Part shown: piece by piece, positions 1 to 42,358 of the stretch
How the letters are laid out: each line of letters opens with the position of its first letter
How positions within the stretch are numbered: position 1 is the first letter of the stretch
Source: a virus
Length of the DNA: 54,219 nucleotides
IMG/VR virus record: IMGVR_UViG_3300045257_000227
Coordinates: 1 to 54,219 of that record
Strand: one strand, 5' to 3'
Position numbers and translations under genes: made by a program
Notes under the pieces: generated by a model
Seen by the model: only the letters and a program-made list of their open reading frames with translations
Databases searched by the model: none
Told to the model about the DNA's origin: nothing

Positions 1-253
1 TCGTCGGCGCGCGTCTGCATCCGCCGTTTCAACTCGTCGAGAGACGATTTTAGCTGTGTTTCCGGGTCGGTGACCGGAATTTGGAACTTGCGCTTGGCCT
101 CGTTCACCAGGCGGATCAGGCGGGATTCGTCGGCGCGCGTCTGCATCCGCCGTTTCAACTCGTCGAGAGACGATTTTAGCTGTGTTTCCGGGTCGGTGAC
201 CGGAATTTGGAACTTGCGCTTGGCCTCGTTCACCAGGCGGATCAGGCGGGATT
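1..253. repeat. 126-bp in-frame tandem repeat, two copies
   Basis: Bases 1-126 are repeated exactly at 127-252 (the match continues one base to 253). The unit is 126 bp, so on the minus strand it encodes 42 residues read twice in the same frame inside the giant polyvalent protein (about residues 2887-2928 and 2929-2970). The unit is charged and probably helical; it contains the stretch NEAKRKFQIPVTDPETQLK. The same sequence returns as the last 127 bases of the window. Copy number could be wrong, because an assembler with a word size near 127 cannot count a 126-bp repeat. Confidence 0.95.
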
Positions 254-3200
254 CCTCGGCGGACGGCGTGCGCCGTTCCAGCCCCGTTTTCAACGGCGGT
301 TGACCGGCCTGCATATCCTCCAATTTGGCAACCTGTTGCATCTGCCCCTTGAGGTCGCGCACTTCCTTGGAAATCTCGTCTTTGGAAAGACGTTTGAAAT
401 TGCCGTAGCCGCTGATGGCGTCCATCGCATCCCGCCGGGTGATGGTCGGGTCGATGTCCAGCAAGACGCCGTGAACCGCGTCAATCAGTTCGTCCCGGTC
501 GGCAATGCCGTCCTCGACGAACAGCCGGGCAAGCCGCTGTACGAGGGGCGCAATCGCGTCGAGTGTGCCGCCGGCCAGCTTGTCACCAATCTTGTTGCTC
601 AAGTCCTCCTGCCGTTCCTTCACGGTCTTGGGTGCCTGTTGCGCGGCTTTGATTTTGGGGGCCGTGTACTTGCCAGCCACTTGTTCATTGAGTTCAGTCC
701 GGCGCTGTTCAGCCGCCTTCCAGATTTGAGTCAGGTGCTTTTTGATGTCCTCTCCAAGCTCGTCCACCATCTGTTTTGCCCAATCCGAACCGACAATCCC
801 CTTGATGATTTTAGCCGCTCCGTAACGGGCGTAATCAATCAAGTCCTCTGGCGGCAGGATGGTCAAACTGGCGTAGGTTCGACCTTCCTTGCGACGGGCC
901 TTGATACGGGCCAAGGCGTCTGACGCCTCTTTATCCGCGACTTGGATGATGCGGTCGGACAGCTTCCGCACGTTCGGCGGGAGCGTGACCGTCGTTTTGA
1001 AGATGTCATCCAGCGTCTTTTTGGCCTCCAACTCGCTAATTCGCTGATTCGTCCGATTTACATATTCGTCATGTTCCTTTTGTAGCTTGTCAATGTCCTC
1101 GTGCAACTGGCGTACTTCCTCAATCTGATCATCGGTCAGGGGTTTGCCGCCGTTGGCCGCGCGTTTGCCGGTTTCCATCGCCGCCAACGAGTAATCTTCG
1201 CGTGCCATCATCTTCCGGGCGTTCAAACCGCGCCCCGTCTCGGTGCCGACACGCTTGTTCACTTCGTAAATCTCGTAAAGCTGGTCCGCTGCCGCCGCCA
1301 CGCGCCCGCGCAGTTCTGCCGCGTCCGCCAGCCGGTTCGGGAAGTCCTTGCCGTCCTCGTAGGCGTAGGCCAAGTCCCGAGTGAGCTTCCCGTAATCGTT
1401 TTGGAGTTCAATTTGACGGTGCAGGAGCAACGCATCCTCAAAATCGGTCACCGCGCGTGGATTGGCCGAAAGCTCGGCAACCAGTTCGTCCTGGATGGCG
1501 GGATTCTGGTCAACCGCGGCCATTGCCTCGTCCCACACGCGGCCAAAGCCCCGGCGAGCCTGTTGCATGGCCGGGGGCAGCCCGCGCAAGGCACGCTCGC
1601 GCTCAACCGTGGCGTTCTTGATGCCGGTCGCGCCCGTCCATCCCGGTTGCTCCTCCTCGGCACTTGGCGTCATGGCACCCATGCTCGGGCCAAGGTTCTT
1701 TTTACTCCGGGTCTTGTTGTTCGAGTCGGAAACGTTACTTTGCGCTGCTTCACCGGTTACTTCGGGCCGAAAAGGTGATTTGGTGATGTCCCGTATTGCG
1801 TCCGCTACCTTTTCCAGCTTGTTTTCTTCGATGGTGACTTCCATCCGGTTACCGACTTTGGTGAAATCACCGGTGAGCCGGACAAGTTTCGGGTCGAGGA
1901 AGATTGAACCGCCGGTACGCCGCGCCGCGCCGGTCTTGACCAAATAACCGCTGCCCGAACGGGATGGCGTGATACTGACGATACCCCCGGACGTGACAGA
2001 GTGCGGGTTGTAACGGTTGACGTGGTTCGTCAGGTAATGTTTTACGGCCGCACCGCTGGTCAAATCCAAGCGGGGGTCGCTGGCAAGGTTCTCCGGTCCC
2101 CAGTTCTTCGGCATGAGCAACCCGGTGATGGTTGAACCGTCATGCGACTGAAAACGTACCATCTTGCCGCGTCCGCCGGTCGCGGTGTAGCCGCGTATCG
2201 GGTTGCCGACGACAAAGTAACGGTCATACCGTGCGCCCTTGCGTCCGCCGGCCAAATCTTCGGGCTTGGCGTCACTGGGTTCGATGCTCCATTTCTCCGG
2301 GTTGAACATGCTGCCGGTCAAATGAGCGATACCGCCAGGAGCGTCTATCATGAAGGTGAACCGGAAAGCCGACGGCGCAAGCCGGTTGCTGTTCGGCGGG
2401 GTGAACTTCACCAGCATGGCGTCAAAGCTCTCGCCGGTTTCCTTGTCGGATAGGTTGACCACTTTGCCAGCCGTTCGGGTGATTTCGCCGACGAGGGACA
2501 TTGTTCTGTCCCGCCAGCGTTGCACCGCCTCGTCATGCGTGCGGATTGCATTCTCGGCTTTAACCTTTTCTATGTCCGTCTTGGCCTCGGCCAACTTCTG
2601 TTGCAAGTCCGTCGAACGCTGGTCTAGCCGTGCGTTGGCTTGGGTCGAAAAGTTATCGAACTCAGCCTGTAACTTCTCCGGGGTGCCGTGGTTCTTGGCT
2701 AGTTCTCTGGACATTTCCGCGCCGCTTGGGACATGCCGGTTGTCCTGCACGTTCCATTGTTGCAACCGGACGCTGGCCGTGAAGATGTTGCTCTCGTCGG
2801 TGCCCGGTGAAAGTTCCTCGTCGGTGCTTCGGATGCCGTCCCAATCGTCGTGGGTGACAATCTCCAAATCGTACTCGCCGGTGTTCTTCAACTGCTGGAT
2901 CAGTTCGCGGTAGGCCGGAATGATGTACTCGTAAGCCTCTTTCTGCCACGCATCGGGCATCCTGGCCATGCGCCCGGTAAATGTGCGGGCCAAGTCCTTT
3001 TTGACTTCCGGGCTCCCGTCCTGCTTGTGCTCAACCTGCAAATCCAGCATGTCCTGCAAGTCCTGCCGTTGGTCGAGGTAATCCGCCACAACCGCATCGC
3101 CGTACTTGTTCAAAAAGTCCTCGGATTCAATCTTGATGGCGTTGTCAGCTTCCGCCGTGGTGTTGGCGTTGAGCGATTTCATTTTGCGCGCGGCCATCGC

Positions 3201-6200
3201 CGCCGGACGCAGTTCCGCCTGCAACGGCAACACGAGATGCGAATACTTAGCGCCGTAGGGCTGGCCGGCCTCGTCCTTACCCTTCATCACCAAGCCGGTT
3301 CGGAAGATGCGCCCGAGCGTTTGGACGAAAGTATTGATGTCCGCCGCCGGCTGCGCGATGAGCATGTGCCGGGGTTTCTGGTCTTTGAACTTCTCGCTGG
3401 CGTGGGCGCTCAAGCCGGTCGAGCCTGACGCATTGAGCAACATCCCGTCGTAAGCGCCGCTGTTGAAACCATTGACCACCTTGTTTTTCTTGGCCGACGG
3501 GAAACGGGTGTAAGTGCCGATACCCTGCTCAAAGTCGGTGTAATTGATACCGCTTTGGCGTCCGGTCAATTCCACCATCTTGACGCCCGCCTTGTTCAAT
3601 TTCTGGATGATGTAATCAATCGGCGAGACGGGAAATTTGCTCTCGATGCCTTTGGCGATTTCTTCAATCTGGTGATATTGGCTTTCCAACACCGGGCCAA
3701 GGTTGGCCGGGTCCATCTGCCGGACAATGGTATCGCCGTTGGGTAGCTCCTCGGAAATACGGAGTGTTCGCGCCAGCGCATGAGCTAAAAGCTCATTCCA
3801 ACGGATTTGCAGCGTGTCACCGGCCTTCATGCCCCTGTCTTGGGCGTAATGGTCAAGAAAACTCTCCATCGTGTTCATCAGGGCGATGACAGGCTTTTCG
3901 CCGCGCTTGTGCGCCGCGATGGCTTCCTCGACAACTGCATCGGCCTTGGCTGCGAGCAACAGTTGACCTATTTGATTGTGGACGATGGACGCGAAATCGG
4001 TCATGGCAATCTGTCCCTCGGTCATCGCCGTTGATCCCTCCTGAGATTCCCGCACGCCTTTGCTGAACTCCACGAGTTGTTGCAGCACGTCCGTTACTTG
4101 GTCTATGTGGTCAACCAGTTCCGCCTCGTCCGCCACTTGCACCGGCAACATCTTGTAGGACACGCCGGTAAATTCGCGCTCGCGCCGCGTGTATTGGCCG
4201 GCCTTCGCCAGTGCTTCGGACACCGCCTGTTGCAACGCCACGCCGCCGCGCTTCATGGCGTCCACAATCTGCCCAAACGAGTCCGCCGCCTTTTTTAACG
4301 CCGTGCGGAAGTAAACCGGCATGTTCTCCGGGCGTTTGGCGTAGGTCGCCGACAGATAGGCCACGCCGCCGCCGCGCTCGGTTTTTGTGCCCGACGCATT
4401 GAGCAACCCAGGCACGTTGACAAACTCGATGTTCGACCCCGAACCGCGCTTCACCCTGCCGCCTTGAAAGAAAGCCGCCTGCATGGACGTTTCGGCATCG
4501 CCCGCCGCGTCGTGCGCCTCGTCCATCACGAGGACGACGGGATTGCTGTCCGTCAGCCGTTCCAGAAACAACTGCCGCGCGTTGCGCGTGTTGATTTGTG
4601 AGTAAGTGGCGAATATCGCGTTGTACCCCGTCTCGGTCAGCCCGTTTTGTAGAATGTTTGCAATGCTTTCGTCCTGCAATTTCTTCGACGGCGAGCGGTG
4701 AATAACGTTGCCTTCAGTGTCAACGATGTGCGCCTTGGTAGAGTCACCGAGGATGAACGGCTTGAGCGTAGTCGAAAGCTGTTGCGGCGTTTGTTCCAGC
4801 AAATCACCCATGTCCCCGTACATGTCGCTGAATAGCTTCGGGTCTTTCGTGAAGAAAACAGGTATGGCGCCGTTCTTCATGGCGTACCAGAGGACCGCCG
4901 CGGCCTGACGCCCTTTGCCGATGCCGGTTTGGTCGCCGATGATGGTCGCGCCGTCGTGCTTCATCTGGTCAATCGCCATTGCCGCGCCGTCCACCTGCTC
5001 GCCGGAAAGAACACGCTTCAATTGTTCAACGGGTAGCTCAAGCTCTTTGGCGAGAAAGTCGTCTAACGGGCCGACGCGCGTTTTCAGGTCGTCGAGGTAG
5101 GCATGAACACCGGGAGCGATGGATTTGGGGATGAGCGTGCCGAAAGCGGGTGCCGTGCTGCGCGGTTCATAGGCAACTTGATATTCGGTGCCTTTGACCA
5201 GTGGCGGTTCTTTTACGTCGGGCTCCGGTGCGGGTGCGGTTTTCTTTTCCTCCAAATAATGTTTGAGATACGGCTTGATGGCATCGCTGTAACTGTTGAG
5301 AAGGAACTGGGCGTATTCCTTGAGGGATTTACCGGCCTTTTGGAATTGCTTCCACGCCTCATCGAAATGGGGCTTTGCCTCGGCGTAGGTTTTCTCGTCG
5401 AAACCTGGGGTGAGTGCGCCAAGGCGTGTTTTGCTGCCAAACAGTTTGTTCAGTCCGGTCATCGCCTCGTCCACGCCCGCAACGCCGTGCTTGGCCGCTT
5501 CACGGATGATGTCCGTTGCGCCTTTTTTTGGGGCAACTTCAAATTCGGGCCGACGAGTTTCGGACTTTGCCGTGACAACACCTTCACGAGTCGGGATGAT
5601 TCGTACTGGTTCCGTGACCCTCACGTTGCCTTCAACGTATGACCTAACTCCGTTTTCATCCTCGTAAACATCTTGCCCTTCGGTATTTTGTCCAACGAGC
5701 TTGCGCTTTGAACGGGATTCTACGTTTTTTGTATTGGCCGCGCTCGCATCTTCAATCAGCGCGTCAATGTCATCCAACTCGGCAAGCTGTTTGTCGATCA
5801 GAGAAACCGGCTTAGAAACGATTCCAGACTCAGCGCCTTTGCCTCCTCCTGCGCCTCGTTCTCCGGTGCTGGCGGGAGCTGCACCGCCTCCGCCATCCCC
5901 GCTTTCCACTCCGCCAACTGGCTGTTTATCTCCGCCGGTTGCATTATCAGGGCGTTCGCCAGCCGCGGGCTTTGGAACTTGTCCGGCGGCAGGTTTTGCA
6001 GGTTCTCGAACGGCAGGTTGTTCTCCAACTGGCGGTCGGCTGACTCCTTTTCCTCCGGGCTTGCCTCCCCGATCAGGCGTCGGAGCAATTCCACTTGGAG
6101 GACGCGCAGCACTTCCGCTGACTTCGGCGGGTTCCCGCTCTGTTGGAGGACGCACAGGTACTCGGGGTGTTCCGCCGGCATCCACGGCTTTTCGTTGGGA

Positions 6201-8912
6201 TTCAATTTCATTGCGTATCCTTTCACTTTCGTTCCAGACTTCGCCCCAGGTGTTGAAGCGGGTCACTTGCTCCGGGCTGTACTCGCCGGGCTTCAAAGGT
6301 TCAGCGCGCCGGCCATTTACCACGAGAATTCGGACAGGGAACTTTGCCCCCTGATTGGCGTACAAATCGCCGTTCACTTCAAAATTGCCGACAACGTTGT
6401 AATGCGAGTACAGGTAGTTTTCAAATACCCGCTGTGCACCGCGTCCGGTCTTGGAAGAATGAAGGCCAGCACCGAGGATCATGTATCCGGCGCCGTCGTC
6501 CTTCATGGCGTCGAGGGCTTTGGCCGAAATCAGGTGTTCGAGGCGTTTGATACCGTAGCCGCCGATGTTTTGATTGTCGGAAGGACCGAAAGGCGGGTTC
6601 GTGTGGACGCGGGAGAACTGGCCTTTGGGTCGGAACTTGGTCGCGTCCTCGCCGGTCACGGTTTTCACCCCGTTTTTCTTCAATTCGGCAATGCGCTCTG
6701 GGTTTTTCTCGTTGGCCGCTGACTTGCCATGTTCGCCGCCAATCATCAAAGCGCCGTTACCCGCTGTCGGCTCGTAAATGTCCTGGCCTTCGCTGCCGAC
6801 GGCATGGTTCAGGGCGTAGGCGAGCGGGACCGGAGTCGAATATGCCTGGTCCTGCATACTCGTGGATGTGCGCCCGGAGAATCGAGGCTGATTCCTGTAA
6901 AGCTCCGTCAGGTGGTCAAATTTCTGTTGCGGGGTGATGTCGGGTTGTTTGGCAATGCGGTCGGCATGACGTACAAGCTCGGCCTCGACGGTTTCTTGCA
7001 TGGCCTTGGTCGTGACGCCCCGACGGTCGGCCATGTTCTTCATGAGCGCGGCTTTGGCGATGCCCGAGGCAGGGGACAGGATCAAATCGGATATTTCGGG
7101 GTCAAGTCCTTCCGGGGTTTTTGGAGGAGTGACCGGCGGTTTGGCCTTTGCTGGTTCTGGAATTGGGTCTTCTGGAAGTCCCATTTCCTTTTTCAATTGA
7201 TTGTCTTTTTTGAGCTTCTCTTGTTTGGCCTTTATTTCCTCATCAGTCATGTCCCTGACAGAAATTTCCACTTCGTTTTTTGAACCGTCCAAGATTTCAC
7301 CGTACGTTTTGACTCGGTACTCTGACGGCTGCGTAACGGTGTTTTGGCCGTTCACTGAAACCACTTTTGCAGCGTCACCTTCGTCGTAAGTATCCCCGAC
7401 ACGTTTCCCGTTCGCTGTTTGAGTCCAGTTCTTTACGGTGTTTCCCGACTTGGTGTTTCTCAGAGTAAATTTTGCGCCGCTTTCGTGGGTTTGTTCCTCG
7501 TCCGGTTTGATTTCGGTAGCAGGTTTTTCAACTTTCGGCGCTTCCTCGGAGATTATTGGAAATGGTGCCTTGAAATCAGGATTGCGCCGGAGCATTTCTT
7601 CCCCACCGCTGCCGGTTCCGGTCGCTGCTTCATATGCCTCTCGAAAGAACTGTGGCTTGGTAGCCAACTGCATCGCCGCGTTCATGTCACCAGATTCTAG
7701 CTTCTGCTTAAAAGCGGTGGATGCTGCTTGTTGATGGTCTTTCAACGCCTGTAATTCCTCAGGTGTCTTGATGGACAACCCGAGGCGGTAAGCCGCGTTC
7801 GTAAGTCCGCCTGTCTCGGCTCGGGTGAACTTGTAAAATTGGTCGCCATCCATCGCCAGAACGGATTGCATTTGTTTTACTGATTCCGGTAAATCCGCCT
7901 CCGCTTGGGTCGGCTTCGTTTCATCCGGTGCCGATTTCGTTCCACTTTCGGGGGCAACCGTTTCAGAAACAGGGGCAACCGTTTCAGGCGACTGCTCCGG
8001 CGGTCGAAATCCTCTCGGCGTTTGGTACACCCCTTCCGGCGGGGTCTGACGCGGTACTGTCTCGGTCCTGGCCGCCGGTTCGGAGTCCAAAAATTCACCG
8101 GCATCGACGTTTTTGGCGAGTTCCTTCGCCGCCGCGTCCAGCCGCTTTTCTTTCAGGACCGTTATCGGCGCTCGCTCATCTACCTTGTGCGCTCCCCCCA
8201 AAATACCCATCAGGACCGCATTGGCCGCGGCGTCCTCAATGGCCGTGTCCCGTTCTGCGCCGGGAGTCATCTGTGAAATCTGGTAAACCGACGGCGCCGA
8301 TATAATCGTGGCTACGCCGCCGGCGCCGCCCGCCCGGTCAATCAGTTCCAGTGCCTTGTCCGACGTGATGCCCGCCTTTTCCGCCACTTTCGCCGCCACT
8401 TTTCCAGCGAACTTTCCCGCATACGGCGCAATCATCGCCGTGGCCGCTTGCACGGGGTCAAACCCCTCTTTGTTGAAGCCAAACGACGCCGCGCCGACGA
8501 CCGGCAAGACGGCGGTTGCCGCCAACTGGGGAGCACTGGCTATTGTGCTGGCTCCTACGCCTGCCGCTGCACGCGGGATGAGCGGTAACGACTGGCGCGC
8601 TTCTTCCCAAGGCGACGTATCCAACAGGTTTACGTCCTCAAGTGCCTTTTTGGTTTCCGGCGGGAGATTAGCCTCGGCGGTAGATTTGATTTCCTGCTTG
8701 GCAAGGTCAAGATTGCCCGTTGAGAGCAATGTTCCCGCCTTTACCAAACCGGAAATAAGTTCGCCGCTGCGCGTGAAGGCGTCGCCGATTGTGGTAGTGA
8801 CCTTGTGTAACCCGTGAGGCTCGTTTGGGTCGTCAAAATCCGATTCGTCGAACTTCAAAGGCGCTGCGGCCTGTGGTTCAGCAAAGTCATCCTCTGTGAA
8901 TGTCAGCGGCAT
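1..8912 (-). CDS. giant DarB-like polyvalent protein, N-terminal 2970 codons (runs through the contig junction)
   Basis: The frame is open from ATG 8912 to base 1 and continues at 54092 to a stop at 52589, giving about 3471 aa. Seen in order: an Ala/Gly-rich hydrophobic stretch (about residues 107-185); a methyltransferase-like motif I, EPTAGNGAL (714-722), and catalytic-type NPPFG (772-776); a Pro/Gly-rich linker (about 900-1020); a helicase with Walker A GDQTGIGKG (K1333), DEAH (1464-1467) and a C-lobe with GLSAHASE and LGRIFRTG (about 1830-1870); then long helical regions. Methylase followed by a Strawberry-notch helicase is the layout of phage P1 DarB, a virion protein that protects injected DNA from restriction. 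By analogy this protein is packaged and ejected with the DNA; that is inference. It lies 13 bp after the 309-aa gene. No clear Shine-Dalgarno sequence precedes the ATG. Confidence 0.88.
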   Translation of the reverse strand, partial: MPLTFTEDDFAEPQAAAPLKFDESDFDDPNEPHGLHKVTTTIGDAFTRSGELISGLVKAGTLLSTGNLDLAKQEIKSTAEANLPPETKKALEDVNLLDTSPWEEARQSLPLIPRAAAGVGASTIASAPQLAATAVLPVVGAASFGFNKEGFDPVQAATAMIAPYAGKFAGKVAAKVAEKAGITSDKALELIDRAGGAGGVATIISAPSVYQISQMTPGAERDTAIEDAAANAVLMGILGGAHKVDERAPITVLKEKRLDAAAKELAKNVDAGEFLDSEPAARTETVPRQTPPEGVYQTPRGFRPPEQSPETVAPVSETVAPESGTKSAPDETKPTQAEADLPESVKQMQSVLAMDGDQFYKFTRAETGGLTNAAYRLGLSIKTPEELQALKDHQQAASTAFKQKLESGDMNAAMQLATKPQFFREAYEAATGTGSGGEEMLRRNPDFKAPFPIISEEAPKVEKPATEIKPDEEQTHESGAKFTLRNTKSGNTVKNWTQTANGKRVGDTYDEGDAAKVVSVNGQNTVTQPSEYRVKTYGEILDGSKNEVEISVRDMTDEEIKAKQEKLKKDNQLKKEMGLPEDPIPEPAKAKPPVTPPKTPEGLDPEISDLILSPASGIAKAALMKNMADRRGVTTKAMQETVEAELVRHADRIAKQPDITPQQKFDHLTELYRNQPRFSGRTSTSMQDQAYSTPVPLAYALNHAVGSEGQDIYEPTAGNGALMIGGEHGKSAANEKNPERIAELKKNGVKTVTGEDATKFRPKGQFSRVHTNPPFGPSDNQNIGGYGIKRLEHLISAKALDAMKDDGAGYMILGAGLHSSKTGRGAQRVFENYLYSHYNVVGNFEVNGDLYANQGAKFPVRILVVNGRRAEPLKPGEYSPEQVTRFNTWGEVWNESERIRNEIESQRKAVDAGGTPRVPVRPPTEREPAEVSGSAARPPSGIAPTPDRGGKPGGKGVSRPPVGEQPAVREPAKPAAGQVPKPAAGERPDNATGGDKQPVGGVESGDGGGGAAPASTGERGAGGGKGAESGIVSKPVSLIDKQLAELDDIDALIEDASAANTKNVESRSKRKLVGQNTEGQDVYEDENGVRSYVEGNVRVTEPVRIIPTREGVVTAKSETRRPEFEVAPKKGATDIIREAAKHGVAGVDEAMTGLNKLFGSKTRLGALTPGFDEKTYAEAKPHFDEAWKQFQKAGKSLKEYAQFLLNSYSDAIKPYLKHYLEEKKTAPAPEPDVKEPPLVKGTEYQVAYEPRSTAPAFGTLIPKSIAPGVHAYLDDLKTRVGPLDDFLAKELELPVEQLKRVLSGEQVDGAAMAIDQMKHDGATIIGDQTGIGKGRQAAAVLWYAMKNGAIPVFFTKDPKLFSDMYGDMGDLLEQTPQQLSTTLKPFILGDSTKAHIVDTEGNVIHRSPSKKLQDESIANILQNGLTETGYNAIFATYSQINTRNARQLFLERLTDSNPVVLVMDEAHDAAGDAETSMQAAFFQGGRVKRGSGSNIEFVNVPGLLNASGTKTERGGGVAYLSATYAKRPENMPVYFRTALKKAADSFGQIVDAMKRGGVALQQAVSEALAKAGQYTRREREFTGVSYKMLPVQVADEAELVDHIDQVTDVLQQLVEFSKGVRESQEGSTAMTEGQIAMTDFASIVHNQIGQLLLAAKADAVVEEAIAAHKRGEKPVIALMNTMESFLDHYAQDRGMKAGDTLQIRWNELLAHALARTLRISEELPNGDTIVRQMDPANLGPVLESQYHQIEEIAKGIESKFPVSPIDYIIQKLNKAGVKMVELTGRQSGINYTDFEQGIGTYTRFPSAKKNKVVNGFNSGAYDGMLLNASGSTGLSAHASEKFKDQKPRHMLIAQPAADINTFVQTLGRIFRTGLVMKGKDEAGQPYGAKYSHLVLPLQAELRPAAMAARKMKSLNANTTAEADNAIKIESEDFLNKYGDAVVADYLDQRQDLQDMLDLQVEHKQDGSPEVKKDLARTFTGRMARMPDAWQKEAYEYIIPAYRELIQQLKNTGEYDLEIVTHDDWDGIRSTDEELSPGTDESNIFTASVRLQQWNVQDNRHVPSGAEMSRELAKNHGTPEKLQAEFDNFSTQANARLDQRSTDLQQKLAEAKTDIEKVKAENAIRTHDEAVQRWRDRTMSLVGEITRTAGKVVNLSDKETGESFDAMLVKFTPPNSNRLAPSAFRFTFMIDAPGGIAHLTGSMFNPEKWSIEPSDAKPEDLAGGRKGARYDRYFVVGNPIRGYTATGGRGKMVRFQSHDGSTITGLLMPKNWGPENLASDPRLDLTSGAAVKHYLTNHVNRYNPHSVTSGGIVSITPSRSGSGYLVKTGAARRTGGSIFLDPKLVRLTGDFTKVGNRMEVTIEENKLEKVADAIRDITKSPFRPEVTGEAAQSNVSDSNNKTRSKKNLGPSMGAMTPSAEEEQPGWTGATGIKNATVERERALRGLPPAMQQARRGFGRVWDEAMAAVDQNPAIQDELVAELSANPRAVTDFEDALLLHRQIELQNDYGKLTRDLAYAYEDGKDFPNRLADAAELRGRVAAAADQLYEIYEVNKRVGTETGRGLNARKMMAREDYSLAAMETGKRAANGGKPLTDDQIEEVRQLHEDIDKLQKEHDEYVNRTNQRISELEAKKTLDDIFKTTVTLPPNVRKLSDRIIQVADKEASDALARIKARRKEGRTYASLTILPPEDLIDYARYGAAKIIKGIVGSDWAKQMVDELGEDIKKHLTQIWKAAEQRRTELNEQVAGKYTAPKIKAAQQAPKTVKERQEDLSNKIGDKLAGGTLDAIAPLVQRLARLFVEDGIADRDELIDAVHGVLLDIDPTITRRDAMDAISGYGNFKRLSKDEISKEVRDLKGQMQQVAKLEDMQAGQPPLKTGLERRTPSAEESRLIRLVNEAKRKFQIPVTDPETQLKSSLDELKRRMQTRADESRLIRLVNEAKRKFQIPVTDPETQLKSSLDELKRRMQTRAD
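5798..6211 (-). CDS. 137-aa gene overprinted inside the polyvalent gene
   Basis: This frame lies on the same strand as the giant gene but is shifted, and it sits over the segment encoding that protein's Pro/Gly/Ala-rich linker. It starts at ATG 6211 (MKLNPNEKPWMPAEHPEYL) with a good Shine-Dalgarno AAAGGA six bases upstream. Composition is that of an ordinary soluble acidic protein rich in Leu, Glu, Asn and Gln with few Arg or Gly, unlike a shadow frame. Residues 30-60 and 95-137 look helical. I do not recognise a family. The giant protein looks like low-complexity linker exactly where this one looks folded, which argues that this frame carries coding constraint. A GTG start five codons earlier is possible but poorly placed relative to the Shine-Dalgarno. 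Confidence 0.65.
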   Translation of the reverse strand: MKLNPNEKPWMPAEHPEYLCVLQQSGNPPKSAEVLRVLQVELLRRLIGEASPEEKESADRQLENNLPFENLQNLPPDKFQSPRLANALIMQPAEINSQLAEWKAGMAEAVQLPPAPENEAQEEAKALSLESFLSRFL

Positions 8913-8925
8913 TTCGTTCGCTGGC

Positions 8926-9855
8926 TTATTCCGCGCCTTTTAATTTACCTTGAACCGCCAAAATGACTTGGGCTTTCGACCAATCCGGGTGATCGGCGGC
9001 AATCTTTTGGGCGAGTGATACCTTGTCCTTTTTGGTCATGTCCTCTGGCGGTGCCGAAAACGAGACGCGCGCCGGGCTGTTGGTTATCTGGTTTTCCAGT
9101 TGCCCAATCCGCGCCGCTTTGTCCGGCTCCATCTCCGGGGGCACCTTGCTCGAAAACAGTTTGGACACCTGAGCTCGTAAAACATCGGGGGATGCCGCTT
9201 TTTCTGCTAACTTTTCAGCGGCAGTCTTTTCGTGCAAGGCTTGCGTCGCCGTGGTTTGATCATGGTTCAACGCCGAATTATACCGCGCATTCCACCGGGT
9301 TGAATACCCAGGCATTGAGAGCAACAAAGGATACGATTCGATTACCTTACGGACAGGTTTACCCCCGGCAATGTCAGACAGGGCGCTTTGTTCGTCCTGT
9401 TGCGCCTCGTATTGATGCTCCGGGCTCGCCGCAAACTGTTGTTGGATAGTCAGCTTCTTTTTCTCCGGCAAACTAGCCGCCGCAATCCATTTTTCTTCCG
9501 CCGGTTTGAGGAAAATCTTGCCCGCGTCGGCTGGCTTATACCCGCTGTTTACGCCTTTCAAATAAGCCGCCTGTGCCGCATCCAGTTCTTTCGCTGCGCC
9601 CGGCTTCATCGCGTCGGGCACGTCTTTCAACACTTCCCACTTATCCCGCACGGGCGACAGGTAAAGTTTGTCCGCGTCGTCCTCGTTGTAACCGGAGTTG
9701 ATGCCGGCGCGGTAACGCTGTTGGGCCATGTCCCATTCGTTTTGAAACTGTTGTTCTGGCGACGAGGGCGCGGTCGGTTGCTGCGGCGTCGAGTCCCGAA
9801 AGGAGAACGTGCTTGGATCTCCGGCACCGGACAAGATGAGGGGTTGGGCAGGCAT
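8926..9855 (-). CDS. probable internal virion protein with a duplicated 26-residue motif
   Basis: This 309-aa protein is of unknown family. An internal duplication is visible: residues 48-73 and 98-123 align closely, sharing the pattern Y..G.NSGY...DA.K..L.P...KW, 50 residues apart. The rest is rich in Ala, Lys, Gln and Glu and is probably helical, with a charged C-terminus ending GKLKGAE. No signal peptide or membrane segment is seen. It sits directly upstream of the giant polyvalent gene and downstream of the Gln-rich proteins. I infer a role as an internal or ejected virion protein made with the polyvalent protein. Confidence 0.8.
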   Translation of the reverse strand: MPAQPLILSGAGDPSTFSFRDSTPQQPTAPSSPEQQFQNEWDMAQQRYRAGINSGYNEDDADKLYLSPVRDKWEVLKDVPDAMKPGAAKELDAAQAAYLKGVNSGYKPADAGKIFLKPAEEKWIAAASLPEKKKLTIQQQFAASPEHQYEAQQDEQSALSDIAGGKPVRKVIESYPLLLSMPGYSTRWNARYNSALNHDQTTATQALHEKTAAEKLAEKAASPDVLRAQVSKLFSSKVPPEMEPDKAARIGQLENQITNSPARVSFSAPPEDMTKKDKVSLAQKIAADHPDWSKAQVILAVQGKLKGAE

Positions 9856-9856
9856 A

Positions 9857-10021
9857 TTACCTATTTTGTATGCGAACGTTTTTCCACACTATGCACAATG
9901 AAGCAATGATTGTGGCTTCAAGGTTGGTTACGGTTATAAAATTTGGAATAATTCGGCCAAAGAACACGAAAAAAAACATCGGCCACAAATAAACCAGATA
10001 TTTATCTAGGTAGGTTTGCAT
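9857..10021 (-). CDS. 54-aa hydrophobic membrane protein
   Basis: This short frame starts at ATG 10021, three bases after the stop of the upstream Gln-rich gene, and ends two bases before the start of the 309-aa gene, so it fills the only gap in this run. The protein begins MQTYLDKYLVYLWPMFFFVF. It has a strongly hydrophobic, aromatic segment (about residues 8-30), a second weaker one (about 37-47), and a basic tail ending KNVRIQNR. The tight fit between neighbours is the main support. No family is recognised; a membrane-acting role in DNA ejection or lysis is only a guess. Confidence 0.6.
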   Translation of the reverse strand: MQTYLDKYLVYLWPMFFFVFFGRIIPNFITVTNLEATIIASLCIVWKNVRIQNR

Positions 10022-10024
10022 TTT

Positions 10025-10579
10025 TTAAACGAAAGGCATTGGTTTTACAGGAGTACCATAGGGAGCGGGTGTGGTTTGGGGAGCCGTAATCGAGCCAGGT
10101 GTAAGCGGAATCTGATTGAAAATGCTCATCCCTGTATTCCCTGTCGTGGTTCCCGGATACTGCAATTGGGCGATATACTTTTGCAGCGCCAACTGGTCTT
10201 GCGCCAGCTTTTCATTCGCCGTCTGCGCCGATGACTGCAACCCGTATTGTTGCGTCTGTCCGGTCTGCGCCAAACCGAAATTTTGTTCCGCCAGCTTTTG
10301 GGCAAATTGTTGTGCGCTCACATTCAAACCGTACTGCTTGTTGTAAGCATCCGTCGCCGCCTGCAACTGGTCTTTCTGCAAACCAAGCTGGCCGGAAGCA
10401 TTTGCCGCCGCGTCCTTCTCCGCTTGGGTCTGCAATCCAAGGTTGGCGTCGAACTGCTGGCCGCGCTGCGCGAGTGACTGCTGTTGCAGTCCAAGGTTCT
10501 GCCCGAACTCGCTCGCCTGCTGGCCCTGCTTGTTGGTGAGCAACCCTTGCAGGTAGGTCAAAATGTTGTTGAAGTCCAT
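10025..10579 (-). CDS. Gln-rich repetitive virion-associated protein
   Basis: This 184-aa protein is dominated by Gln, Ala, Leu and Asn. Its quasi-repeats of the form FGQNLGLQQQSLAQRGQQFD suggest a long helix or coiled coil over residues 15-140. The C-terminus is Pro/Thr/Gly-rich. No signal peptide or enzyme motif is seen. The upstream neighbour has the same composition and the two are probably paralogous or co-assembling. The position between the tail genes and the ejected polyvalent protein suggests an internal virion or ejection protein. The family is not recognised. Confidence 0.75.
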   Translation of the reverse strand: MDFNNILTYLQGLLTNKQGQQASEFGQNLGLQQQSLAQRGQQFDANLGLQTQAEKDAAANASGQLGLQKDQLQAATDAYNKQYGLNVSAQQFAQKLAEQNFGLAQTGQTQQYGLQSSAQTANEKLAQDQLALQKYIAQLQYPGTTTGNTGMSIFNQIPLTPGSITAPQTTPAPYGTPVKPMPFV

Positions 10580-10582
10580 AGG

Positions 10583-11218
10583 CTAAAATGATTGGAGGTT
10601 GCCCGGTAATTGGCCGGTGATTTGATTGCCCAACCCAAGCGCCGATAGCATGGCTTGGAACTGGTTCAACTGGTTTTGTGTGTTGGCCTGATTTTGCTCG
10701 AACCCAAGGTTTTGCTGGAACTGCTGGTTCTGCTGGTTCTGGCCCTGGCTGAACTCGCTGCCCTGTTGCGCCAGATTTTGACCGAACTGCTGGTTCTGCA
10801 TCTGCTGGCCTTGGTTCGCCAGCGCGGGCGACGTGTAAGTACCGATGGTCTGCATCAAGTCCTGCAAACCTTGCTGCTGGTTTTGCTGCGCCTGTTGGCC
10901 GTACAAATCCGTTCCCCGCTGGCCGATGAAAGAGTTGATGTCCCCAGTGCCGCCGGGACCGCCAGCCGGTTGTCCCGCGCCGACACCCCAGTAAGCGTTT
11001 GTCGTCCGGGCTTGAGACACCGAAGGAAGCCCGTCCAACAAGTTCCCGATAGCTCCGGTTGCGCTTTTTGTCAGGTTGCCGATACCTGGTAAAACTGACT
11101 CCAAAAACTGCTGGCTGTTGGCACCGCCGGGCGGCTGGTTGAAACCGAAAGTCTTGGCCTGCATGATCGACGCCGGCTGCACGGGCTCGGAACTGTTTTG
11201 TGGGTTGCTATATGGCAT
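10583..11218 (-). CDS. Gln/Asn-rich repetitive virion-associated protein
   Basis: This is a 211-aa protein. The N-terminal half is Pro/Gly/Ser-rich with a hydrophobic helix near FLESVLPGIGNLTKSATGAI. The C-terminal half is extremely Gln/Asn-rich (repeated FGQNLAQQ and NQQFQQNLGFEQNQ motifs), resembling the downstream 184-aa protein. It starts three bases after the connector-like gene and is three bases from the next, so it is co-translated in the late operon. It is probably an internal or ejection protein or a minor tail component. No known family was identified. Confidence 0.75.
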   Translation of the reverse strand: MPYSNPQNSSEPVQPASIMQAKTFGFNQPPGGANSQQFLESVLPGIGNLTKSATGAIGNLLDGLPSVSQARTTNAYWGVGAGQPAGGPGGTGDINSFIGQRGTDLYGQQAQQNQQQGLQDLMQTIGTYTSPALANQGQQMQNQQFGQNLAQQGSEFSQGQNQQNQQFQQNLGFEQNQANTQNQLNQFQAMLSALGLGNQITGQLPGNLQSF

Positions 11219-11221
11219 AGG

Positions 11222-12217
11222 TCAATACGGATTTTTGATTCTTCGGCCCATGACGGCGTTCACGCGGATGGGAGTTTGTTCGTCGCTGTTCTTGTCGCGC
11301 ATCTCAAAGTTCATTTCGCGCACGGCCTGCATGATGGCCGCTTCCGCGCCCGGCGTGTCCCCGGCCTCGTTTTGCTTGATGGAATTGAACATGTAGATAA
11401 GCGCATCCATGTTGTCAATCATCAGAAAATCCCGGTCGTTTTTGACCGGAATGAATTCGAGCTTTATTAACGCCTCGACGGTCGTCCAGCAAATGCCGTT
11501 GGCGTCGGGCTTCGAGGCATTGTACGGGCTCGACATGATGCGCGAACGGCGGATGCGAGGATTCGTGTCGTTCGGTTCAAATGCGGCCAAATCGCGCAAG
11601 GTGTTCGCGCTTGGATCGTACTCGTACAGGTAAGCCATGCCGTCGGTCGCCTGCCGGTTCACGGCGTCAATCCGGGTCACGAGGACAGAATTCGTCGCCC
11701 ACGGCGCGGCGGCGGTCAAAGTCATCCCGTTTTGCCATACCCCGTTGATTTGTTCCTGTAACGGTTGACCGCCGTACTGCGTGCCAAAAAGTGTGATTGT
11801 CTTGCCGATGTCCGTCGTTTTGGTCGTGTAGTAGCGGATGAGTTTTCCGGTCGTCCCGCTTACTTCGTTGGCGGTCGGCCCCAGGTTGGCATCCTCGACC
11901 ACCGCGTCACAGTGAAACCCGCTATGCCGGTGATGCGGCCCCACGAAAGAGAAATTGTTGTTGAACAGTTGACCGGGTTTGCTGCATCCGAACCGGATAC
12001 CCCGAACCGCCCCCACCCACCTTGGCCACGCGATAATACAACCGGAAACACAGAAGGCAACTACCCACTCGGTATCAAACCAGTCACCGCGCCGGAGCAA
12101 CATCCGTTGCGAACGGTTCACCAGATCAATGAACTTGGCCGATGACGCACAAACCGCCGAGGCTTCCACAAGTCCGAGTTCGGATTTTGCGTCAGCCAGG
12201 GTGAAGCGGTAAGCCAT
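11222..12217 (-). CDS. putative head-tail connector (adaptor) protein
   Basis: This is a 331-aa soluble protein. The N-terminus (MAYRFTLADAKSELGL) reads like a helical segment, the middle (about 120-220) is beta-rich, and the C-terminus (about 255-320) is helical around LIKLEFIPVKNDRDFLMI. It lies immediately downstream of the large nozzle-like protein, an arrangement that recalls the paired adaptor and nozzle genes of T7-like phages. I infer an adaptor or tail-tubular-A-like role from position and size; no diagnostic motif is visible. An unusual Trp/Cys-rich patch lies near residues 47-75. Confidence 0.5.
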   Translation of the reverse strand: MAYRFTLADAKSELGLVEASAVCASSAKFIDLVNRSQRMLLRRGDWFDTEWVVAFCVSGCIIAWPRWVGAVRGIRFGCSKPGQLFNNNFSFVGPHHRHSGFHCDAVVEDANLGPTANEVSGTTGKLIRYYTTKTTDIGKTITLFGTQYGGQPLQEQINGVWQNGMTLTAAAPWATNSVLVTRIDAVNRQATDGMAYLYEYDPSANTLRDLAAFEPNDTNPRIRRSRIMSSPYNASKPDANGICWTTVEALIKLEFIPVKNDRDFLMIDNMDALIYMFNSIKQNEAGDTPGAEAAIMQAVREMNFEMRDKNSDEQTPIRVNAVMGRRIKNPY

Positions 12218-38385: not shown

Positions 38386-39627
38386 TCAATTGTGTGTCAG
38401 CATACACCCCTCGACCTTCACCCACTTGTCCGCCCCATACTTGTTGATGATGTCCTGAAAGTAAAACCAGTCCGCCGAATGGCTCTCGGTGTCCCGCCAG
38501 CCAACGGAACACGCCGCGTCTTTCTTGATCATCACCCCCGCGCAGTCAATGTACCCGCGTTCCAACCGGCAATCGAGGATACCCCAGTTCACATACGAGT
38601 GAACCATCTTGGAACAGTAGGACGCCACGGCTCCGTTGCGGACGAGTGGCGCCAACAGGTCTTTGCAGAAGTTCGGCGTGTGATGATTGTCGCCGTTGGT
38701 GATGACGATGGCGAAGGTGTCAGGGGCTATTTTGCCGTCTCGAATCAAAGTCAAATACCATTGGCGGTAGTAGTGTCCCCAATTTCCTACCCGCTTCTCC
38801 TGTTCGGTGTAATGGATGCGCGGGTCTTTGATGGATTTCACCAAGTCAGAGATGCCTGTCTCATTTGGGCCGTCGTGAATCAGGTAAAGCTCCCAGTTCT
38901 CATGCGTCTGATTCTTGAGCGACGATATGATTTCCGGGAACGTGTTGTAGATCGGGCAGATGAACGTCACTTTTTCGTTCAGTGGAAACATCGCGTTAAA
39001 TTCTTCCTGCCGGTTAGGGTGTCCCCAAGATACATTTTCCCACTCCCATAAAGGCGACGTGGCCACCGTTCCTGATACCATCCTGACGCACAGGTTTAAA
39101 CCAAGTATCTGTTCAAACAGGCAATTGCCACGATGCTCAAAGGCAAGGCACTGGTCGCGGCTCGTTATCGGGTCGGCTGGGAAGGTCAACCGTTGTGACA
39201 CCGATTTTGAAATGCAAAATCCGATTGTTCGAATGTGTCTCCTAACAACGTCAGACACTTCGTGCGCTACTGCCCCGGTTGTCTGATTTTCCATCCCATC
39301 CAGAAACGCCTTCACGAACGTCTTATGGATTGGAATAACGTCGTCGGTAATCCAAATAATATGCTCCCAACCGTTGTCGAACCCGATCAGCCGTTCGCGG
39401 CACACGTCCTGAAAAGCAGCGATGTCTTGGCCGATGTTTCGACGCATGATATATTTAATCCCGTTCTCGTCGCACAGTTTTTTGAATGGCGTAGATTCGG
39501 CAGGCGTGTCAACATTGTGGATGACGACCAACTCAGCGCCCGTCTGGTCGCACTGTTTCCAGCAACGCAGCCACGTCCTGATGTTCTCAAGACGGTTGTA
39601 CACCACGATGACGACAAGAGTTTTCAC
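38386..39627 (-). CDS. bifunctional protein with two glycosyltransferase domains
   Basis: This 413-aa protein has two domains in tandem. Domain 1 (about 1-215): TLVVIVVYNRLENIRTWLRC with a metal-binding-type WITDDVIPI (D95-D96). Domain 2 (about 220-413): TFICPIYNTFPEIISSLKNQ, HENWELYLIHDGPNETG, and a GDNHHTPNF near residue 310. The second is a clear GT-A family 2 domain; the first is GT-A-like but shorter. Two-domain enzymes of this kind build repeating or branched glycans. Its start overlaps the 118-aa gene. Confidence 0.85.
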   Translation of the reverse strand: MKTLVVIVVYNRLENIRTWLRCWKQCDQTGAELVVIHNVDTPAESTPFKKLCDENGIKYIMRRNIGQDIAAFQDVCRERLIGFDNGWEHIIWITDDVIPIHKTFVKAFLDGMENQTTGAVAHEVSDVVRRHIRTIGFCISKSVSQRLTFPADPITSRDQCLAFEHRGNCLFEQILGLNLCVRMVSGTVATSPLWEWENVSWGHPNRQEEFNAMFPLNEKVTFICPIYNTFPEIISSLKNQTHENWELYLIHDGPNETGISDLVKSIKDPRIHYTEQEKRVGNWGHYYRQWYLTLIRDGKIAPDTFAIVITNGDNHHTPNFCKDLLAPLVRNGAVASYCSKMVHSYVNWGILDCRLERGYIDCAGVMIKKDAACSVGWRDTESHSADWFYFQDIINKYGADKWVKVEGCMLTHN

Positions 39628-39980
39628 GCGCTACGGTCTAGTTGGTTGTCTGCTTCGCATTTGATGGCTTCCGGCTGAGAATCGCACCACTTAGCCCATG
39701 CTGCATTGTCGCGCATCTCCACCTCTGTTGGAGGTTGCTCCCGCAGCTTGTATTCGGCAATGGGGTAGAATCCTCCCCGTCCTCCGCTACGATTGATGTG
39801 ACAAGCCCCAAGGTACTTGGACATCACGTAGCAGTGCAGCCGCTCCTCTGGTCTGGCAACATCGTCAAGCTCGTTTAATGCGTCGAATACGCCGAGCAAT
39901 TCGGTGACACGCAGTAATATCGGTGTTCGTTTTAGCATCAGTGTTTTTCCAATGGCGGGGCCGTCAATGAATTTAGTCAT
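39624..39980 (-). CDS. hypothetical protein, 118 aa
   Basis: It begins MTKFIDGPAIGKTLMLKRTP with a helical core and ends with AIKCEADNQLDRSA. There are ATGA overlaps with the glycosyltransferase downstream and the 118-aa Trp/Cys protein upstream. No motif is recognised. The strict coupling suggests a role near the glycosyltransferase function or a general late gene. Confidence 0.65.
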   Translation of the reverse strand: MTKFIDGPAIGKTLMLKRTPILLRVTELLGVFDALNELDDVARPEERLHCYVMSKYLGACHINRSGGRGGFYPIAEYKLREQPPTEVEMRDNAAWAKWCDSQPEAIKCEADNQLDRSA

Positions 39981-40333
39981 AGCTGCTTGGGTTTAAGATT
40001 TGGTTTCTCTGCCAAAACAGCGGCTTCAAATTCGGCAGCTTCGTGTTTGTTTTCGAAGTACAATACCACGGGAAAACTTCCATCAAGTTCCGGCGTTGGG
40101 CAGAGTGGGTCAATGTTGAAAGTCGGTTCATTCCACGGAGAGACATAATTTTTTGCGTCCCGGCTGTATTTTTTGCGTCCCGGCTGTAGTGGTTTTGGGT
40201 GCAAATAATTCTTATCAAATACGCGAATTTTAAAAGCTCCACATTGACGACACCAAAGGACTTGATGCTCCGGCCAGTCGCCTTGAAGAATGTCGGCGGT
40301 CACTTGGTCAGGAGGATGAACACAGGGCTTCAT
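39977..40333 (-). CDS. hypothetical protein, 118 aa, with a 20-bp tandem repeat in frame change
   Basis: I start it at MKPCVHPPDQVTADILQGDW (40333, ATGA overlap). WCRQC near residue 30 may be part of a metal site. A perfect 20-bp DNA duplication at 40149-40188 is read in two different frames as PGRKK and SRDAKN. The part before (DKNYLHPKPL) and the part after (FNIDPLCPTPELDGSFPVVL) both look like folded protein, so the insertion apparently kept an open frame. Function is unknown. Confidence 0.6.
   Translation of the reverse strand: MKPCVHPPDQVTADILQGDWPEHQVLWCRQCGAFKIRVFDKNYLHPKPLQPGRKKYSRDAKNYVSPWNEPTFNIDPLCPTPELDGSFPVVLYFENKHEAAEFEAAVLAEKPNLKPKQL
40149..40188. repeat. perfect 20-bp tandem duplication inside a gene
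   Basis: Bases 40149-40168 repeat exactly at 40169-40188. The unit (TTTTTTGCGTCCCGGCTGTA on the plus strand) is not a multiple of three, so the two copies are read in different frames by the minus-strand gene. It is probably a replication-slippage duplication. Confidence 0.95.
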
Positions 40334-40542
40334 AAAATAGGAACCATAGGGCTTGCTGATTTCCACCCGGCCCTAAATGCTTCATGTGGTCCACAACCAT
40401 TAATCCAAGGGTTTGAATTAATGGTTCGCCCCATCAGTGCAGCCAATTTCCCACTTTCGTATGGATGTTCCTTGCCATCCCCATGAATGAGTTCAATTAG
40501 ATTTTGGGCTTCCTCTGGAATTGTTTCGCTATTTTTTGTCAT
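40330..40542 (-). CDS. hypothetical protein, 70 aa
   Basis: This small acidic protein, MTKNSETIPEEAQNLIELIH, has a two-helix pattern and no recognised family. It is coupled by ATGA to the 118-aa gene and lies 17 bp after the GT9-GT2 fusion gene. The region reads as one operon. Confidence 0.6.
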   Translation of the reverse strand: MTKNSETIPEEAQNLIELIHGDGKEHPYESGKLAALMGRTINSNPWINGCGPHEAFRAGWKSASPMVPIL

Positions 40543-40559
40543 GGTATAATCGTCTTAGA

Positions 40560-42104
40560 TTATTTCAGGTAGTCAAAGTTGCCAAGGGTGTTGCCCGCGT
40601 TGTGAACAAAATACAGCATCCATTTGGTCGCAAACCTTGCGTTCGAGGTCGCCATGATTCCGTTGATGCCCGGCACCTTGCTCGTTTCCGACTGGGACAG
40701 ATGAACGCCCCGAGCAAACGGGGTGTACCAGATTTTAAAACCGGCCTGACGCACCTTCATGCAAATGTCATCGTCCTCACAGTAGAATTTGTAACCCTCG
40801 TCGTACCCGCCAATCTGCTCAAACACAGAACGGCGAAACATGAAGGACGCACCGTTCACGTTCTCCATCTCACAAGGATAGCACACAGTCTCGGTGGTTT
40901 GGGTGCCAATGCCGTCAATGTGAATGAAGCCTGCCGAACCGTCTGGATTTCGAGTCTTGCCAGAGTGGTAAATCCTACCGTTCGGAAAACTGAGAAAGTG
41001 TCCGACGCACCCCACGTCATGCGCCATGACCGCCTTCATCTTGTCCACCGCGTCAGGCGCAAGGTAAACGTCGTCATTCAACACCAGCAGGTAATCGCCC
41101 GTCGCGTGCTTCGCCCCAAAGTTCACGTTGCGGCCAAACCCGATGCCGGACTCAGACGAGACGACATGCCGGATTTTCGTATTACCGATAACCCCTTCGG
41201 GCAGCACGGCCGCGGCTTCCCGTGTCACAATAATCTCGTCCACTTGCGGCAGCACGGCCAACAGGCACTTGTTGAGCATGTCCGCCGTTGGCTTGTAGAT
41301 CGGAATGACACAGGAAACCGATACGGCCGCTTTCGGCGGGTCAATCACGGTCGGCGGGTTGATGGCCCTTTTCACGGCCTGAATGATTTCTACCTTCATC
41401 CGCTCGTAATCCGCATACTTGATATATAACGCAAATTTCTTGTGCGGCGCGCTCCCACGCCAGCCGTCCGCCGCCAGAACAATCGTCGGCACCGGGGACG
41501 CCTTCGACAGATGCACATGCGCCGTCTCAATCGTCACCAGGCACGCCGCGCGGTCGTACAACCCAAGCAGGTCGTATATCCGATGCGCTTTCACTTGCGA
41601 CAGCCGGACAAATTCATGGTGCGGAAACTCCGCCTGTATCAGCCGCGCCAGTTCCTCTTTTGGCAGGAACGGCGAGCTTTGAGAGTGGTCCCCGAACAGG
41701 ATGTAGGGTTTCGCCTTCGTGTGTATCCCAAGGTCTTTCTCCCGGTCGGCGTTTCTTTTATCGAACACGAGCGGCCAGTCCTCGAAATGTTCCACGGCGC
41801 CCGCGCGGCGCCACTGGTCGAGTTGAAAACTCGGCGTCAATTGTTGCACCGGCATGTTCCCATGCGTCTGTAAAGCGATGACCTGACTGAACCGTTTTTT
41901 GGCAAACAGGATGGCACCGGCCAAGTCCGAACTGTCCCCGTTCCAAATCACCGGCTCGACATAGCTGACGCCTTCGAGAACTGAGGCATACTCCGGGCTG
42001 ATGACCAGCTTTGGGCGTTGTCCCGTCTCTTTGAAGTCGTGGTATAGGATCGGGAGGATGCTCAGAACGTCACCCGCCTTGGAAAGCTGGATGTAGCACT
42101 TCAT
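40560..42104 (-). CDS. fusion of a heptosyltransferase-like (GT9) and a family 2 glycosyltransferase
   Basis: This is a 514-aa protein. I place the start at MKCYIQLSKAGDVLSILPIL (42104, ATGA overlap) rather than 46 codons upstream. Residues 1-250 resemble GT9/heptosyltransferase GT-B-like folds (LSKAGDVLSILP, ACLVTIETAHVHLSKA). From about 262 a GT2 domain follows (SVSCVIPIYKPTADML) with LLVLNDDVYL (about residue 349) and the acid motif EDDDICMKV near the end. Such enzymes join two sugar-transfer steps in one chain. It is an unusual gene for a phage and may modify LPS or a virion protein. Confidence 0.85.
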   Translation of the reverse strand: MKCYIQLSKAGDVLSILPILYHDFKETGQRPKLVISPEYASVLEGVSYVEPVIWNGDSSDLAGAILFAKKRFSQVIALQTHGNMPVQQLTPSFQLDQWRRAGAVEHFEDWPLVFDKRNADREKDLGIHTKAKPYILFGDHSQSSPFLPKEELARLIQAEFPHHEFVRLSQVKAHRIYDLLGLYDRAACLVTIETAHVHLSKASPVPTIVLAADGWRGSAPHKKFALYIKYADYERMKVEIIQAVKRAINPPTVIDPPKAAVSVSCVIPIYKPTADMLNKCLLAVLPQVDEIIVTREAAAVLPEGVIGNTKIRHVVSSESGIGFGRNVNFGAKHATGDYLLVLNDDVYLAPDAVDKMKAVMAHDVGCVGHFLSFPNGRIYHSGKTRNPDGSAGFIHIDGIGTQTTETVCYPCEMENVNGASFMFRRSVFEQIGGYDEGYKFYCEDDDICMKVRQAGFKIWYTPFARGVHLSQSETSKVPGINGIMATSNARFATKWMLYFVHNAGNTLGNFDYLK

Positions 42105-42358
42105 TGCTTGGCCTTCCAAAACTGGCACGCCGGAGATTTTAGACGGATGTCGCTGCCCGGTCCGGCTGTTGCTTTGACCAAATCGCACTTCCAATAGGTC
42201 TTGGAAAAGTGGCGCGAGTAGGCGTGAACGCACGTCCGACAAAATTCACCAACTGGACCAGAGCCGGGACGCGCAGCGTAACCCTTTGGCTGTCCAATCT
42301 TCTTCATCGCTGCCCGCGCTTCCTCGATGGAGATGTCTTTTCCGAACAGGTCTTTCAC
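42101..42358 (-). CDS. small Cys-containing protein, 85 aa
   Basis: It begins MKDLFGKDISIEEARAAMKK. A metal site is likely from FCRTCVHAYSRHFSKTYWKC and SPACQFW (Cys at about 40, 43, 58 and 77). A helix precedes it. It is coupled by ATGA to the GT9-GT2 gene and to RusA upstream. Similar small zinc proteins often accompany RusA in phages. Confidence 0.7.
   Translation of the reverse strand: MKDLFGKDISIEEARAAMKKIGQPKGYAARPGSGPVGEFCRTCVHAYSRHFSKTYWKCDLVKATAGPGSDIRLKSPACQFWKAKQ

Follow-up and report, generated by a model that had tools for sequence, protein, structure and literature searches.

Examination of a 54,219-nucleotide virus record (IMG/VR record IMGVR_UViG_3300045257_000227; hereinafter, the window) shows that a giant phage gene, encoding a DNA methyltransferase-Strawberry-notch helicase protein, very likely contains a second, fully embedded gene that is read in the +1 frame and encodes a protein of 137 aa. 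Although direct expression or protein evidence is lacking, an open reading frame is found at the same place and in the same +1 frame in many related genes of phages, plasmids and bacteria, and it evolves as a protein-coding sequence, suggesting that a whole protein family has been largely overlooked. The initial annotation identified this reading frame by its start codon, Shine-Dalgarno sequence and soluble-protein composition, and inferred that it is a nested gene that dictates the sequence of a low-complexity linker in the host protein. Both of these inferences are supported by the analysis described below, whereas nothing in this analysis shows the antirestriction or assembly role that was also suggested.

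The nested gene and its host

On the minus strand of the window, a single frame is open from the ATG at 8912 to the left edge of the record, and the nested gene is located between the two conserved domains of its product. The relevant features are:

3..8912, minus strand: host gene, running off the record, at least 2970 codons, encoding a methyltransferase, a linker, a Strawberry-notch helicase and further regions
6270..6842, minus strand: methyltransferase domain of the host (PHROG 6263, E 1.9e-4; motifs YSTP and NPPF)
5181..6269, minus strand: interdomain linker of the host frame (363 aa), the 5' part of which holds the nested gene
6218..6223, minus strand: Shine-Dalgarno-like AAAGGA, 6 bases before the ATG at 6211
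5798..6211, minus strand: nested gene, 137 aa (ATG at 6211-6209, TGA at 5800-5798), +1 frame relative to the host gene; the product is acidic (pI 4.72, 15.4 kDa) and helical, with a W-x-P motif near the N-terminus and a Leu-rich LSLESFL C-terminus
4125..5015, minus strand: AAA_34, the Strawberry-notch P-loop domain of the host (PF13872, E 9.2e-17)
2856..3623, minus strand: Helicase_C_4, the Strawberry-notch C-terminal domain of the host (PF13871, E 2.1e-11)

An in-frame GTG at 6226 would extend the nested product to 142 aa. At the record edge (window 1-260), the host protein ends in a tandem repeat of about 42 aa that may be either an assembly repeat at the contig end or a true repeat. Elsewhere in the window (38386-42242), the phage encodes two proteins with glycosyltransferase family 2 domains. 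In the nested stretch, the host frame is of low complexity, with 63.5% G/P/A/R/S and 10.9% hydrophobic residues, compared to 35.0% and 29.2%, respectively, in the small frame.

The length of the nested frame is weak evidence of coding. A G + C-rich Pro/Gly/Ala linker lacks T and so could stay open in other frames by chance; indeed, among 5000 shuffles of each kind, the +1 frame remained open in 22.5% (codons permuted within the linker) and 20.3% (codons redrawn from the gene's own usage), and a 200-codon stop-free run exists in the +2 frame inside the helicase region of the same gene (window 4114-4713). The coding character of the frame is a different matter: GC1/2/3 is 0.67/0.37/0.80 in the small frame, as in a normal gene of this genome, against 0.79/0.66/0.37 in the host frame on the same DNA and 0.61/0.42/0.69 in the methyltransferase region of the host, and the codon-usage score of the small frame exceeds that of all 5000 shuffles of each kind. 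Together with the comparative evidence below, this renders the chance explanation highly improbable.

Conservation of the nested frame in related genes

Searches for close kin of the window by peptide patterns, DNA similarity and tblastn with the nested protein detected nothing. By contrast, a tblastn search with the host domains identified phage and plasmid relatives at about 30% identity, and among eight of these that were read out, four (a Bacteroides phage, a Gloeobacter plasmid, a Chroococcidiopsis plasmid and a Thalassospira plasmid) showed a +1 ORF of 121-251 codons (stop to stop) in the same linker. We then sampled related loci through the host protein only, retaining the best 80 of 182 viral loci and the best 80 of 305 genome loci, so that the sample leans towards the window's kin. 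With the window and the first eight relatives, 169 rows were analyzed, and a duplicate of the window was dropped; of the 169 rows, 4 lacked a domain, 1 had the wrong domain order, 15 had the two domains in different frames and 6 had a stop between them, leaving 143 with both domains in one unbroken frame.

Among the 122 of these genes with a linker of at least 100 aa, 112 carry a +1 ORF of at least 80 aa starting from an ATG, and none carries a +2 ORF of that length. Among the 21 genes with a shorter linker, only one (L009) has such an ORF, and it gave no match to the nested profile. All 108 loci with a match to the nested profile (E under 1e-3) have it in the +1 frame, although the seeds of the profile are among them and the E-values of this first profile are accordingly circular. 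The absence of the ORF from 10 of the 122 long-linker relatives indicates that the host protein can do without it. In an attempt to identify an ancestral state with the methyltransferase, the small gene and the helicase as three separate genes, we read 8 of the 21 loci where the two domains are not in one unbroken frame in all three forward frames, and none of the 8 clearly showed this arrangement. Two loci counted as not fused, L028 and L129, do carry the +1 ORF; in L129, a Leptolyngbya contig, the small frame runs on into the helicase frame while the methyltransferase frame ends separately (5566-11544), which could be a natural fusion or a frameshift in the assembly.

Selection in the nested frame

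To determine which frame is constrained, 18 pairs of loci sharing no locus were aligned as DNA without regard to frame, and substitutions were counted by host codon position. The counts at positions 1/2/3 are 428/317/1268 in the methyltransferase and 286/163/853 in the helicase start (714/480/2121 for the flanking domains together), against 680/409/374 in the nested stretch, where host position 1 is the third position of the small frame. Host position 1 leads in the nested stretch in all 18 pairs, albeit narrowly in L014/L023 (5/4/2) and L132/L154 (14/7/12).

Only one fairly near relative of the window was found (L010, 58% identical in the best segment and 74% over 313 columns of the two host domains), so the selection test on the window itself rests on a single pair, the rest of the evidence coming from the family. 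For this pair, the counts are 74/46/45 in the nested stretch and 40/27/105 in the methyltransferase, and L010 has no stop in the small frame but 8 in the third frame. Neutral simulation of the same 165 changes yields 44.6 +/- 3.9 identical nested residues (maximum 58 in 5000 trials), whereas 71 of 137 are observed, and the nested frame stays open in 0.6% of the simulations. The host frame shows 44 identical residues against 46.7 +/- 3.9 expected, as if unconstrained in sequence. It is nonetheless kept open, with no stops across the nested stretch in 112 loci (shifted reading of 14 other genes of the window gives 3.5 stops per 137 codons), and hydrophilic (10.9% hydrophobic residues against 23.3% for shifted genes). 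Thus, this DNA encodes a small protein, predicted to be folded, in one frame, and a flexible linker, the amino acid sequence of which is largely dictated by the small frame, in the other.

A profile constructed without the window and L010 identified the window ORF with an E-value of 2.9e-6 among 1052 six-frame ORFs, the next best hit having an E-value of 0.33. Searches of whole genomes with the nested profile gave few matches, namely 14 of 20 genomes reached through loci, and 5 of 292, 2 of 369 and 4 of 297 genomes of three groups. We count 11 places that are not in the original sample, all of which lie between methyltransferase and helicase in the +1 frame; four of the 20 places from the first search were not read out again but lie in genomes of loci already in the table. 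One further place, L193 (E 8.2e-4; 1498-2157), lies outside any such gene and is a free-standing gene with a CPTCGHH zinc-ribbon-like start. Its family, most members of which combine this N-terminal motif with a C-terminal domain resembling the nested protein, occurs in 25 of 46 genomes of that group (the phylum of L108, a Desulfovibrio by record title). Its neighbors look like ordinary chromosomal genes and, in several loci, include genes nearby that resemble etfBA, as judged from sequence starts. Profile-to-profile comparison gives 94.4% probability over 122 columns but, given that this match emerged after searching about 1000 genomes, it is a lead for an origin of the domain rather than proof.

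Initiation of translation

The nearest ATG before the W-x-P motif is preceded by a Shine-Dalgarno core in 67 of 87 loci, compared to 70 of 391 internal ATGs. The base profile upstream of the start peaks as A-G-G-A-G at -12 to -8, and an in-frame stop lies 10 codons or fewer before the ATG in 75 of 112 relatives, in at least 15 of them directly before it, although the starts in this count were picked partly by the presence of a Shine-Dalgarno sequence (and, for one locus, L002, two procedures picked different starts, giving 119 and 80 aa). These observations favor independent initiation over expression of the small frame as a frameshift extension of the methyltransferase. The small frame is open for 17 codons before the ATG in the window (from 6262) and for up to 102 codons in some relatives, which speaks for a programmed +1 shift, but this possibility appears very unlikely, even though slippery sites were not searched for.

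Distribution and co-divergence with the host

On a tree of the two host domains (163 rows, FastTree), the distribution of the nested gene requires 6 changes, against 43.5 for shuffled labels. The gene is missing in one clade of 44 rows, by record title mainly Bacteroidota, that have mostly short linkers or split genes, in three deep rows (L003, L008 and L009), and in single rows such as L104, whose linker is only 83 aa, and L053. Relatives without the nested gene mostly have linkers of 55-85 aa, as if the linker shrinks when the small gene is lost or was never gained; the presence of the nested gene also explains why these giant antirestriction-type proteins carry long Gly/Pro-rich linkers. 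By record titles, the carriers include Cyanobacteriota, Pseudomonadota, Thermodesulfobacteriota, Nitrospirota and Bacteroidota, although contigs from MAGs may be phage, and a copy is present in the culturable model cyanobacterium Picosynechococcus PCC 7002. Nested and host distances correlate (r 0.667, 0 of 999 permutations as high), but the nearest neighbor agrees in only 44 of 99 rows, and the nested proteins diverge faster than the host domains. Because the small frame carries ordinary coding composition in the window, it might be the older frame at this spot, with the host linker having grown by reading through it; this inference is weak given that the nested frame has the better codon-usage score in only 78 of 112 loci.

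Predicted structure and possible function

No Pfam, PHROGs or NCBIfam family is shared by the 75 members scanned, and no PDB sequence matches with confidence. A weak similarity of the window protein to phrog_71 (head-tail adaptor, E 0.054) was not repeated by other members, and single-member family hits (E 4.7e-4 or worse in Pfam) fit no common theme. The window protein is modeled with middling confidence (pLDDT 72.9), whereas the AlphaFold2 model of the 131-aa nested protein from a related locus, L070, is confident (pLDDT 93.1, pTM 0.86) and shows short strands near the N-terminus and six helices of eight or more residues. Foldseek searches with the window model against PDB and BFVD, and Foldseek and VIA-align searches with the L070 model against PDB, found no similar fold, which does not prove that the fold is new. 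The products are acidic, 108 of 112 being net negative, with a median pI of 4.45 and a median of -7.2 charges per 100 aa, against -0.7 for 14 other genes of the window.

The function of the nested protein can only be inferred. Considering its near confinement to this gene pair, its size and its acidity, the simplest reading is that it is a dedicated partner of the giant protein, made in cis from the same mRNA and binding the methyltransferase-helicase as a chaperone, an assembly or loading factor, or a regulator of its DNA-binding parts. This proposal is tentative; only gene co-location, acidity and size speak for it. It is similarly possible, but no more than that, that this is a family, perhaps with a new fold, that exists essentially only as an overprinted gene and serves as an obligate third component of methyltransferase-Strawberry-notch machines in phages, plasmids and at least five bacterial phyla, overlooked because annotation programs drop embedded genes. 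If the product is indeed a partner of the host protein, work on such methyltransferase-helicase proteins made from recoded genes would have lost a component. Alternatively, the product might act independently, for example, as an acidic DNA-mimic antirestriction protein or a host-takeover factor that merely shares the locus. In line with this possibility, the protein is small and acidic, as DNA mimics tend to be, lies in an antirestriction-type gene and is carried by phages and plasmids alike. However, its charge is moderate, far from what extreme mimics appear to have, and nearly all copies found are inside this one gene pair, whereas an independent antirestriction gene would be expected to move alone; we consider this alternative less likely than the partner role.

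Comparison with known systems

In the open-access literature searched, we found no report of this embedded gene. Of five named records inspected, one annotates the small gene and four do not, although the plasmid gene tables are incomplete. The annotated copy is WP_230844304.1 (hypothetical protein, 149 aa) from Gloeobacter morelensis pGMOR1, a member of this family; the annotation starts the helicase gene after it, so that the overlap with the fused host frame was not seen.

The host gene has the architecture of the polyvalent-protein DNA methylase-helicase dyad described by Iyer et al. (PMC5512222), with P1 DarB as the archetype and a Strawberry-notch variant mentioned, so the designation of the host as polyvalent in the initial annotation fits. 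Such methylase-helicase proteins are carried by phages and conjugative elements; the passages found in that work do not mention an embedded gene. P1 also encodes, next to and downstream of darB, the 146-aa protein Ulx, which is listed as aiding DarB localization (PMC9024508), a role akin to that proposed here. Ulx is, however, encoded by a separate gene that is not overprinted, and shows no similarity to the nested family (hhalign probability 0.15%); translated P1 DarB and Ulx gave no match to the nested profile, the other frames of darB not having been scored.

The nearest known arrangement is the ShiLan domain, an out-of-frame HNH endonuclease encoded in a stop-free stretch of a phage DNA methylase gene (PMC11855218). 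The genetic arrangement is the same, namely an insertion without stops in the methylase frame that encodes a real protein out of frame, so a selfish homing element of this type had to be considered. However, ShiLan is a scattered homing insertion for which the authors report no detectable RBS, whereas the gene described here is near-universal at one linker across the host tree, diverges with its host, has a strong Shine-Dalgarno sequence, encodes an acidic product of about 130 aa, and matches no HNH or any other endonuclease family among the 75 members scanned. A homing element thus appears very unlikely. Finally, in fully embedded same-strand phage genes, of which phiX174 E in D is apparently an example, one gene likewise lies wholly inside another in a shifted frame; long embedded genes that are conserved over deep evolutionary distance seem to be rare in dsDNA phages and bacteria, and here the arrangement spans dsDNA phages, plasmids and bacterial contigs, with one frame reduced to a linker.
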